From contig JAFCDQ010000001.1 in NCBI GenBank assembly GCA_017609645.1, positions 186,001-250,000 of the forward strand: a DNA stretch of 64,000 bases, read 5' to 3'. Under the pieces are notes generated by a model. That model worked only from the letters and a program-made list of their open reading frames with translations. It had not been told where the DNA came from and searched no databases. Position numbers and translations under genes: made by a program. Position 1 is the stretch's first letter. Each line of letters begins with the position of its first letter. The DNA comes from Candidatus Woesearchaeota archaeon (GTDB lineage Archaea; Nanobdellota; Nanobdellia; Woesearchaeales; ARS49). Of this stretch, positions 48,463 to 61,764 are shown in pieces.

Positions 48463-48552
48463 TGCGGGAGGCAGGACTCATCCCCTGGCCTGCGGCCAGC
48501 TATGTCTCCCTGCGGTCGACTGTTGTTTTTATTTATGCGGGAGGCAGGACTC
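48463..48552. repeat. 17-bp direct repeat of the tRNA-Leu 3' end (att-like)
   Basis: TGCGGGAGGCAGGACTC occurs at 48463-48479 and again at 48536-48552, where it is the complement of the acceptor/T-arm 3' part of tRNA-Leu(CAA). Between them is a perfect hairpin CTGGCC-TGC-GGCCAG (48485-48499). Such 3'-end duplications mark tRNA-targeting integration sites; with 56 bp between the copies, only a scar would remain. A decayed tRNA copy is the alternative. Confidence 0.5.
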
Positions 48553-48637
48553 GAACCTGCGAAGGCACTAAGCCACATGGTTTCTAATGCTTAAAGCGAT
48601 TTGAGCCATGCCCATTTGACCACTCTGGAACTCCCGC
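48536..48637 (-). tRNA. tRNA-Leu(CAA) with probable 18-nt intron
   Basis: Class II cloverleaf on the minus strand: acceptor GCGGGAG/CTCCCGC (48637-48631 with 48543-48537), D stem CCA/TGG, anticodon stem CATGG/CCATG, long variable arm GGC/GCC, T arm GCAGG-TTCGAGT-CCTGC, discriminator A at 48536; CCA not encoded. The anticodon loop is 25 nt; assuming a canonical intron after position 37, the loop is CTCAAA+A and the anticodon CAA. TATA-like element at 48661-48671, about 29 nt upstream. The anticodon depends on the intron position. Confidence 0.85.
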
Positions 48638-58652: not shown

Positions 58653-59079
58653 AAAAACAATATATTTTTCACCTAAATTAGGAGCAATATTATTTTGGGT
58701 ATTTCTCTTTGTAACAGTATTAGCTAATTTTATTATCAGCGTAATATTAGTTCCAATCATGCTAGTTATGAGTGGATTCTATCTTTATGGAAGTGTAATG
58801 TTCATAGGCTTCTGCTTTGGTTTTTTATTATATTCAATACTAGTATCAATAGAAAAGTTAGAAACAAAACATCATATATTGATGGGATTATTTATTCCTG
58901 CTATAGCATTAATCAATGTGTTAATATTCACAAAATTATCCAATGATTTAATAGACTTTTTAGGGTTAAATACGCCAAAACATAATCCCTTAAGCTTAGC
59001 AGCAGCTTATGCAGTTGCATTCGTGCTACCTTATTTAATAGGGCATATGATCAAATTTAGAAAGAAAAAACCTGAGTGA
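58645..59079 (+). CDS. Small polytopic membrane protein coupled to the MinD-like gene
   Basis: 144 aa from the ATG at 58645 (a TTG at 58636 opens the frame). Four hydrophobic segments: about 12-32, 36-66, 76-96 and 112-135. Unrecognised. The 8-nt overlap with the MinD-like gene suggests a functional pair. Confidence 0.65.
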   Translation: MAEKTIYFSPKLGAILFWVFLFVTVLANFIISVILVPIMLVMSGFYLYGSVMFIGFCFGFLLYSILVSIEKLETKHHILMGLFIPAIALINVLIFTKLSNDLIDFLGLNTPKHNPLSLAAAYAVAFVLPYLIGHMIKFRKKKPE

Positions 59080-59088
59080 AGCCGAAAC

Positions 59089-59097
59089 ATTTATAAG
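59089..59097 (+). promoter_or_regulatory. TATA box of the S13 operon
   Basis: ATTTATAAG element centred near 59093. It predicts a start site near 59119, leaving a leader of about 70 nt before the S13 ATG. Confidence 0.6.
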
Positions 59098-59118
59098 TGA
59101 AACCTTTGTTTCTTTGAG

Positions 59119-59188
59119 AATTGCCCGAGTGAAAGCGTATATAGGGCAACAAAAACGCTTTCTAATACTAAAAGGGTATTTAAACAAA
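59119..59188 (+). promoter_or_regulatory. S13-operon leader, predicted H-type pseudoknot
   Basis: Stem 1: TTGCCC (59121-59126) with GGGCAA (59144-59149), 6 bp. Stem 2: GAAAGCG (59131-59137) with CGCTTTC (59156-59162), 7 bp. The stems interleave, with loops of 4, 6 and 6 nt; the last loop is CAAAAA. A third hairpin AATAC (59164-59168) with GTATT (59176-59180) follows, then AAACAAA and ATG. All pairs are Watson-Crick. In E. coli the S13-S11-S4 (alpha) operon is repressed by S4 binding a leader pseudoknot; the same genes follow here. Confidence 0.6.
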
Positions 59189-59662
59189 ATGGCAGAAAAA
59201 AAAGAATACTTAAGGCAATTAATAAGAGTCGCAAGTACTGATTTAAACGGAGACAAAAACTTATTCTATGCGCTTAGAAAAATCAAAGGAGTAAATACAA
59301 TGATGGCAAATGCTATCTGCAAAATAGGCAGTTTTGATCCAACGAAAAAAACAGGAGATTTAACGCCTGAAGAAATCAAAAAAATTGAAACTATCTTAGA
59401 CACTCCATTAAAACATGGATTGCCAAAATGGATTCTTAACAGAAGAAATGATCCAGAAAAAGGAGCAACATCGCACGCGTATGGAAATAATTTGATGTTT
59501 ACAAAAGATAATGATCTCAAAAGACTGAAAAAAATAAAATGCTACAGAGGACTAAGACACATGCATGGTCTGCCTGTGAGAGGCCAAAGAACCTGTTCCA
59601 ATTTCAGAAAAAACAAAGGAAAAATTACAGGAGTAAAACACTCAGGAAAGAAGAGAGGTTAA
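59189..59662 (+). CDS. rps13: Small-subunit ribosomal protein uS13
   Basis: 157 aa from the ATG at 59189; the frame extends upstream through the leader without S13 character. AEKKEYLRQLIRVASTDL start, then KGVNTMMANAICKIGSFD and the C-terminal GLRHMHGLPVRGQRT. Subunit-interface protein. First gene of the S13-S4-S11-RpoD operon. Confidence 0.96.
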   Translation: MAEKKEYLRQLIRVASTDLNGDKNLFYALRKIKGVNTMMANAICKIGSFDPTKKTGDLTPEEIKKIETILDTPLKHGLPKWILNRRNDPEKGATSHAYGNNLMFTKDNDLKRLKKIKCYRGLRHMHGLPVRGQRTCSNFRKNKGKITGVKHSGKKRG

Positions 59663-59669
59663 TGAACAA

Positions 59670-60422
59670 ATGGGCGATCCAAGAAGAATCAGGAAAAAGT
59701 ATTCCGGACCAAGACATCCGTGGCAGAAATCAAGATTAGATGAAGAAAGAACATTAATAAGAGAGTATGGACTAAAAAACAAAAAAGAATTATGGAAAAT
59801 CAATTCAAAATTTAAAAAATTCACGAACCAAGCAAAAAATTTAATCACATTAACAACCGAACAAGGAAAATTAGAAAAAAAACAATTAATTAACAAGCTG
59901 GCGCGGCTTGGCTTGCTTAGCATAGATGCAAATGAAGAAGATGTTCTGAACTTGAACGCAAAAGATATTTTCGAAAGAAGATTACAAACCCTAGTTTTCA
60001 GAAAAGGTCTTGCGAAGACAATGAAACAATCAAGACAGTTTATAGTGCATGAACACATTAGAATTGATGGGAAAAAACTAACTTCACCAAGCCATTTAGT
60101 CACATTAAAAGAAGAATCAACAATAGAATTCTGCCAAACATCAAGCTTATCTGATCATGAACATCCAGAAAGAACAACAAGCAAAATCATAGAAGAAGAA
60201 GCTGTGAAAGAAGAAAAAGAAAAAAAAGAAACAAAAAAAGAAAAGAAACAAACAAAAACAGGAACTAAGAAAGAAAAGAAACAAACTGGCACAGAAGCTA
60301 AAAAAGAAAAGAACCAAACGAAAACAGAAACTAAGAACGAAGAGAAACAAACTGGCACAGAAGCTAAAAAAGAAAAGAACCAAACAAAAACAGAAACTAA
60401 GAAAGAAGAGGCGGCAAAATGA
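59670..60422 (+). CDS. rps4: Small-subunit ribosomal protein uS4 with repeat-built C-terminal tail
   Basis: 250 aa; the family core is about 165-180. [20 protein letters not shown] start and the S4 RNA-binding domain ([14 protein letters not shown], then [18 protein letters not shown]). The last about 75 residues are Lys/Glu/Thr repeats encoded by a 66-bp tandem repeat. Primary 16S rRNA binder and, in bacteria, repressor of its operon. Confidence 0.95.
60288..60419 (+). repeat. 66-bp tandem repeat in the S4 gene tail
   Basis: Two copies, starting at 60288 and 60354, that begin GGCACAGAAGCTAAAAAAG and differ at only a few positions before the second copy diverges at its end. In frame (22 codons), so length changes keep the reading frame. 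Shorter related units precede it. Confidence 0.75.
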
Positions 60423-60826
60423 TGAAAAGACAACTAGAACCAATAAGATGGGGAGTTGCGCATATTTATAGTTCTTATAATGATACAATAATACACATAA
60501 CAGACATAACAGGGAATCAAACAATAGCTGTTGCAAGCGGCGGCATGATGGTCAAAGCAGATAGACTAGAAAGCAGCCCAACCGCAGCAATGATGGCTGC
60601 AAAAAAAGCAGCAGAAACTGCAAAAGACAAAGGAATAAGAGGAGTGCACGTAAAAGTAAGAGCTCCAGGCGGTCACAATGGACCTACAAATCCAGGACCA
60701 GGAGCACAAGCTGCAATAAGAGCACTGAGCAGAATAGGATTAAGGATAGGAGTCATCGAAGATGTAACGCCACTGCCTCACGGAGGGTGCAGAAAAAAAG
60801 GCGGAAGGAGGGGAAGAAGAGTATGA
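60419..60826 (+). CDS. rps11: Small-subunit ribosomal protein uS11
   Basis: 135 aa. [19 protein letters not shown], then [19 protein letters not shown] and the C-terminal [21 protein letters not shown], all diagnostic. The ATG at 60419 overlaps the S4 stop (ATGATG; the second ATG at 60422 is equally possible). Forms the mRNA exit platform. Confidence 0.97.
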
Positions 60827-61599
60827 CTATTGAAAATGTGTCAAAGGACAGAAAAAGCGGAAGAATTTCTGTTACTTTCAAAAATACAAACCCCGCTTTT
60901 GTAAATACATTAAGAAGAGCTATAGTTGATTTAGTACCAACCATGGCAATAGATGAAGTAACTTTTAACCAAAATACTTCTGTGCTATATGATGAAATAA
61001 TAGCACATAGATTAGGATTAATTGTATTAAAAACAGATCTAAGAGGATATAACCTGATTGAAGAATGCACATGCGAAGGAGAAGGCTGTGCAAAATGCGA
61101 AATCAACTTGAAATTAAAATCAACAGGTCCTGGAACAGTTTACGCTTCTGACTTAAAAAGCAAAGACCCAAAAATAAAACCAGAATACCCAAAAACTCCA
61201 ATAGTCAAATTATTGAAAGGACAAAACATGGAGTTAATAGCCACAGCAAGATTAGGAAAAGGAAAAGTACATTCAAAACACAACCCCGGATTAGCATGGC
61301 ACACTTTCAAAAATAAAATCACAGTAAATAACAATCATAAAGACTTTGACAAATTCAAAGACAAATACCCTCGAGAAATATTCACAAAAACAGGAAAAAT
61401 AGATGCTAAACTGATTGAAGAAAATAATCTTTATGATGCTTGTGATGGTGTAAACGACAATATAATCAAAATAGAACATGATGATTCCACAATCACATTG
61501 CATATTGAGCCTTGGGGACAACTAACTGCTAAAGAAATGTTAGTAAGAGCAATTGAAGACCTCAATAAATTATTTTTAGAACTAGAAGAAAAAATCTGA
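60823..61599 (+). CDS. rpoD: RNA polymerase subunit D (Rpo3)
   Basis: 258 aa from the ATG at 60823, which overlaps the S11 stop by 4 nt. Rpb3/alpha-like dimerisation domain ([23 protein letters not shown], split by a region with [11 protein letters not shown], a metal-binding cluster in Rpo3) and the C-terminal helix [16 protein letters not shown]. Assembly platform of RNA polymerase with Rpo11, Rpo10 and Rpo12. Confidence 0.96.
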
Positions 61600-61608
61600 A
61601 AATAAACT

Positions 61609-61632
61609 CTGCAGGAACTTAAGTTCATGCAG
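61609..61632 (+). repeat. Palindromic hairpin abutting the tRNA-Leu 5' end
   Basis: GAACTT|AAGTTC (61615-61626) is a perfect 12-nt palindrome flanked by CTGCA (61609-61613) and TGCAG (61628-61632). The 3' part TGCAG includes the first four bases of the tRNA acceptor strand, so in the precursor the leader could pair with the tRNA 5' end. Confidence 0.45.
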
Positions 61633-61764
61633 GGGTGGCAGAGCCTGGTCAAATGCGCTAGGTTGAGGCGGCGGAAAATCCTTTGGATTTTCGAGGTTCA
61701 AAACCTACGTCTTTGAACGCCTAGTCCCTTAGTGGGTGCGCGTGTTCGAATCACGTCCCCTGCA
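61629..61764 (+). tRNA. tRNA-Leu(GAG) with about 50-nt intron
   Basis: Class II cloverleaf: acceptor GCAGGGG/CCCCTGC, D stem GCA/TGC, anticodon stem CTAGG/CCTAG, variable arm, T arm GCGTG-TTCGAAT-CACGT, discriminator A at 61764, no encoded CCA. The anticodon loop begins TTGAGG, giving anticodon GAG (61665-61667), with an intron at about 61669-61718 in the canonical 37/38 position. The intron folds as two hairpins: GAAAATCC-TTT-GGATTTTC and AGGTT-CAA-AACCT. It lies between rpoD and L18e; a tRNA-Leu sits in the same operon position in haloarchaea. Confidence 0.88.

Follow-up and report, generated by a model that had tools for sequence, protein, structure and literature searches.

The S13 Operon and Its Predicted Leader

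Why should the S13-S4-S11-RpoD operon of a woesearchaeon begin with a structured leader, and could that leader regulate the operon? In the 64,000-nt stretch of DNA analyzed here (the window; coordinates are those of this stretch, and features lie on the + strand unless stated otherwise), the first gene of the operon is that of uS13, recognized from its open reading frame and its homologues (59189–59662, with the ATG at 59189). It is followed by the genes for uS4 (59670–60422), uS11 (60419–60826), and RNA polymerase subunit D (RpoD, 60823–61599), which were assigned from their open reading frames and gene order. Upstream lies an archaeal promoter (59083–59097) consisting of a BRE-like CGAAACA and the TATA box TTTATAAG at 59090–59097, the spacing of which is kept in relatives. 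From this box, transcription is predicted to start at about 59117–59121, giving a predicted leader of approximately 70 nt. The original prediction had assumed a leader of this length and had regarded it as unusual because many other transcripts of the window appeared leaderless. The position of the TATA box supports the former assumption, and the latter agrees with the TATA-like boxes found 28–33 nt 5′ of the ATG in several other window genes, the pattern expected of leaderless transcripts. As an observation on the coding region, translation of the uS4 open reading frame gives a C-terminus (60230–60420) that forms a long, repetitive tail rich in Lys, Glu, and Thr.

A Predicted H-Type Pseudoknot

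Two helices can form in this leader in a crossing arrangement. P1 is a perfect 6-bp helix between UUGCCC (TTGCCC in the DNA, 59121–59126; stem a of the original prediction) and GGGCAA (59144–59149), and both of its strands show compensatory changes in an alignment of 73 sequences. P3 is an 8-bp helix (GAAAGCGT/ACGCTTTC in the DNA) between GAAAGCGU (59131–59138; the former stem b), seen in the sequence and in a subtype alignment, and ACGCUUUC (59155–59162), which crosses P1 and closes an H-type pseudoknot, as supported by the swapped-partner tests described below. P1 and P3 are joined by GAGU (59127–59130), which is invariant as GAGT in the alignment, and the loops measure 4, 5, and 5 nt. The two perfect interleaved stems originally noticed are thus real, but the second had been given as 7 bp and the loops as 4, 6, and 6 nt because a terminal U-A pair was left out. 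A third helix of the relatives, the hairpin P2, is reduced in the window copy to at most GU-GAAA-GC, and a conserved UUCU (59160–59163), identified by comparison of relatives, marks the 3′ edge of the element. When perfect H-type arrangements with stems of at least 6 and 7 bp and loops of at most 6 nt were searched for on both strands of the 64-kb window, P1/P3 was the sole occurrence, against a chance level of 7 in total over ten Markov-simulated 64-kb sequences.

The 5-bp hairpin originally described near the ATG is also present in the sequence (59164–59180; AATAC at 59164–59168 with GTATT at 59176–59180), but it is no conserved part of the element, and we rejected it as such; in relatives the stretch between motif and ATG ranges from 4 to 260 nt. 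The nested minimum-energy fold of the leader was only mildly better than those of shuffled sequences, by a method that cannot show pseudoknots. In that fold, the P1 5′ strand (59122–59126) pairs with 59174–59178, within a downstream AAGGGUA close to the ATG, rather than with its own partner, and an alternative fold may therefore be possible in this genome.

Conservation in Relatives

The S13 loci compared here came from three sources, namely members of the family, members of the order, and named GTDB genomes; almost all carry the label Woesearchaeota. The genus of the window is a singleton among the genomes compared, and members of its family are about 44–55% identical in S13. Of the 114 distinct sequences 5′ of uS13, 110 contain the element: 104 match a strict pattern (GCCCGAGT, a variable hairpin, GCGnnnn, AGGGY, a variable stretch, and UUCU), and 6 more were recognized by eye. 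It was found neither by pattern nor by eye in the remaining four (L070, L091, L103, and L123); in L091 and L103, some 40 nt separate a TATA-like box from the ATG, which would be consistent with loss of the leader. The conserved fold comprises P1 (GCCC/GGGY), the inner hairpin P2, and P3 crossing P1, together with the invariant GAGU and the conserved UUCU. CCGAGT is invariant, and the GU of GAGU borders P2 in most relatives. P2 itself varies in length and sequence while its pairing is kept.

In some relatives (L032, L040, L063, L095, L120, and L168), a second conserved sequence about 70 nt in length (GGCGAGGC...GCCGAGCACAARAT...hairpin...CGGATTGAAA) intervenes between the pseudoknot motif and the ATG of S13, and a further copy lies at position 5803 of L046. 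Inexact likenesses precede S13 in L046, L080, and L085. This stretch has no Rfam match, and since one copy is located elsewhere, it may be a dispersed insertion.

Covariation of the Helices

Compensatory changes in the stems across relatives had been named beforehand as the test of the fold. For P1 and P2, the alignment of 73 sequences (A1) showed pairing in 89.7% of cells, with both sides changing in 6 of 10 pairs; double changes occupied 57 cells, compared with 22.7 in shuffles, and the observed value was reached by none of 500 shuffles on any measure. Sliding the partners destroyed the pairing. Individual pairs illustrate the extent of the exchange, with AU, CG, UG, UA, GU, and GC all found at pair 6-48, and UA or CG at pair 15-32. 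Among 68 representatives with less than 70% S13 identity, pairs 1, 3, and 4 of P2 exceeded every shuffle.

P3 pairs the GCGnnn strand with the strand just 5′ of UUCU. Its loop lengths differ among copies, and it was therefore scored by the best helix against swapped partners. The swap test gave z = 5.6 for 97 copies (0 of 10,000 swaps) and z = 4.7 for the 68 representatives below 70% S13 identity (0 of 20,000); because swapping corrects incompletely for shared ancestry, both z-values are guides rather than probabilities. Strand pairs as different as GAAAGCGT/ACGCTTTC in the window, AATAGC/GCTATT, GGCGTTCCC/GGGAATGTT, AGCGCTTT/AAAGTGCT, and TGGCGTAT/ATACGCTA occupy this helix. The window copy falls in a subtype with P2 reduced and P3 extended (alignment A2), in which 96% of P3 cells pair, compared with 21–60% when the strands are slid. 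In one row of A2 (L041), an inserted hairpin was removed and the row is misaligned; no conclusion rests on it.

The helices differ in their reach: P1 is universal, and a clear P3 is seen in no more than about 40% of copies. For the invariant GU and GC, either an extension of P2 or a part in P3 is conceivable in most relatives, and their invariance does not decide between the two. The predicted fold has the two crossing conserved helices of an H-type pseudoknot, and the expectation of a conserved, structured leader before S13-S4-S11-RpoD is strongly upheld. We also observed that many copies lacking a clear P3 have a nested hairpin directly after GGGY (L109, L118, L063, L114, L111, L072, and L099), as if hairpin and pseudoknot replaced each other in evolution.

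These changes bear on whether the conserved letters act in the DNA, as a promoter element downstream of the TATA box with only incidental stems. Such an element would account for the invariance of CCGAGT and for a nearly fixed distance to the TATA box, whereas the compensatory changes in P1 and P2, the P3 swap test, and a P2 that varies in length and sequence while it keeps its pairing are not expected of it. The covariation leads us to reject a DNA-only element as the sole explanation, and we consider this reading the least credible of those weighed here, its probability being close to nil; an additional promoter role alongside the RNA structure may exist.

Distribution and Position

A covariance model (R1) built from 73 copies matched the window at 59117–59176 (E = 2.1e-9, 37.8 bits), the only significant match in its own genome. 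In a sample of the phylum, R1 had matches in 145 of 371 genomes, all from the Woesearchaeales except for one chance match, and in a sample of the class in 74 of 378, with two matches outside the order. These two, one inside a leucyl-tRNA-synthetase-like gene and the other 5′ of an MCM-like gene, look like chance and were rejected as copies. Among the 84 matches whose genome also had its S13 mapped, 83 were located immediately 5′ of that gene and on its strand. Inspection by eye of two sister orders of the class revealed no such motif before S13, and in one of them the majority of S13 genes look leaderless, with some 30 nt between a TATA-like box and the ATG.

Compact H-type pseudoknots with invariant nucleotides also occur among riboswitches, and a small-molecule riboswitch would share these features with the element. 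No copy is followed by a metabolic gene, however, all mapped significant copies except one weak match are tied to the ribosomal-protein operon, and none of the Rfam riboswitches matches, making this explanation highly improbable.

The placement of the element is regular at both ends. The motif's GCCC follows the first T of the TATA-type box by 30–39 nt in 95 of 99 relatives (sd 1.8), and the end of the element lies a median of 22 nt from the start codon (at most 45 nt in 81%), which together place it at the 5′ end of the transcript, beside the ribosome landing site. Located a few nucleotides from the predicted 5′ end and with constant promoter spacing, the fold could act by itself, with no ligand, for example by protecting the mRNA 5′ end from exonucleases or by loading ribosomes, in which case it would be constitutive and exert no feedback. 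A general stabilizer should recur on several genes with high expression, whereas each genome has a single significant copy of the element, always 5′ of S13; a constitutive role is therefore unlikely.

A Probable Ribosomal-Protein Leader and Its Candidate Ligand

The element lies in the predicted 5′ leader of a ribosomal-protein mRNA and has a conserved, covarying secondary structure. Because it belongs to one operon, occurs in one copy in a 5′-leader position, and combines invariant nucleotides with a covarying fold, we are fairly confident that it acts in cis as a ribosomal-protein leader (r-leader) with which the S13-S4-S11-RpoD mRNA of the Woesearchaeales begins. Published surveys recognize ribosomal leaders by these same marks (PMC7247131). 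As judged from comparison of sequences, it is probably a new feedback switch for ribosome production. A ribosomal protein encoded by the operon, when in excess over rRNA, would bind the folded leader, and the bound protein would block the small subunit, or trap it as it initiates, about 20 nt further downstream, which would shut the operon down. A simple ribosome clash does not explain the 14 of 99 loci in which more than 60 nt separate the element from the ATG. The minority of copies with a clear P3 and the negative result for rRNA mimicry, described below, also speak against this reading.

Regarding the ligand, uS4 is the most likely candidate and may be the regulator, as the original prediction proposed, by analogy with bacteria, several lineages of which control the equivalent operon through it. 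The order S13-S4-S11 is identical in every locus long enough to tell; rearrangements of the operon, from which the ligand might have been read, were found in none of them, and genomic context therefore cannot name the ligand. The same r-leader could instead respond to uS11 or uS13 (or to a later product, L18e, L13, or S9), and we regard a ligand of this kind, with uS11 and uS13 taken together, as a possible but more doubtful reading. All candidate genes follow the leader in fixed order, so that the context fits each equally well, and there is no rRNA likeness that points to the S4 site; the precedent of uS4 in the equivalent bacterial operon speaks against such a ligand.

Likeness to rRNA was sought by running R1, with filters off, on the 16S and 23S rRNAs of the organism itself, and nothing significant was found. 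The top match (E = 2.1) lay on the non-rRNA strand; on the rRNA strand, none was better than E = 4.4, for a match in 23S. A resemblance to the S4 site of 16S rRNA, which we take to be h18/h3, was also rejected, as the organism's own 16S reads CCACAAGTGG there, not GCCCGAGT, and R1 finds nothing significant. CCCGAGT does recur in 16S h24, a region presumably near the uS11 site, and would in that respect favor uS11, but the link may be chance, as one matching 7-mer is no surprise in rRNA totalling about 4.4 kb. Mimicry of rRNA of the kind that characterizes the Firmicutes/Fusobacteria type of S4 leader was not found in the element.

Relation to Known Leaders

A close parallel is the alpha operon of E. 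coli, where uS4 binds the leader and traps the ribosome (PMC10931766). Both leaders are pseudoknotted and precede S13, in operons that encode S13, S11, S4, and an alpha-type RNA polymerase subunit. By contrast, the E. coli leader (Rfam Alpha_RBS, of gammaproteobacteria) folds into a nested double pseudoknot with the ribosome binding site inside it, whereas the archaeal element is a simpler predicted H-type pseudoknot upstream of the start codon of an operon ordered S13-S4-S11-RpoD. The Rfam alpha-operon leader model did not match 58900–59400 at a permissive threshold or the window at the gathering threshold, and neither the window copy nor the copies of six relatives examined had a match to any Rfam family. 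On the best reading, the element is a new r-leader class and no member of the alpha-operon leader family, analogous to that leader in place and perhaps in working.

Other bacterial S4 leaders, in the Firmicutes, Fusobacteria, Clostridia, and Bacteroidetes, covary and precede rpsD or rpsM operons, with the assignment to S4 resting mostly on operon content (PMC7247131). Their structures are unrelated to the archaeal element, and those of the Firmicutes and Fusobacteria mimic rRNA through GUAA, which is not conserved in the element. Archaeal r-leaders are known for S15, eL15, and L4 (PMC7247131) and for L1 (PMC10931766). These are likewise structured and upstream of ribosomal-protein genes, but they belong to other genes and lineages and have other structures, the first three being mainly from Euryarchaeota. 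The nearest survey lists four archaeal r-leader motifs, none of them for the S13 operon (PMC7247131), and our search of open-licence papers on RNA motifs of Woesearchaeota and DPANN returned no report of the element.

Orthologues of uS4 repeatedly evolve self-control (PMC3315480). The eukaryotic protein, RPS9, differs in that yeast regulates it via splicing and not translation, with a pseudoknot proposed in the yeast introns (PMC3315480). Autoregulation of an archaeal alpha operon had been thought new when the leader was first described. This holds for the element, of which we found no report, but not entirely for the idea, since a 2012 paper already calls archaeal S4 autoregulation possible, citing Sano et al. 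(1999) on Halobacterium (PMC3315480). Tentatively, and by the same bacterial analogy, the operon could be controlled through a pseudoknot r-leader bound by uS4, a counterpart of the alpha-operon leader with an unrelated fold, across most of the Woesearchaeales.

Few cis-regulatory RNAs are known in archaea, and an element kept across most of a DPANN order offers a large set of natural sequences to align, along with a predicted fold and a question of binding that can be tested directly. If the leader is bound by uS4, RNA feedback on the S13 operon would have arisen independently in archaea and bacteria, and bacteria, eukaryotes, and archaea would each control uS4 via differently designed RNA structures.

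Apart from the leader, Rfam models identified two tRNA genes in the window that ARAGORN missed, at 61629–61764 (+) and 48536–48637 (−). At 136 and 102 nt, both are longer than a tRNA and probably contain introns; the former sits between the RpoD and L18e genes.
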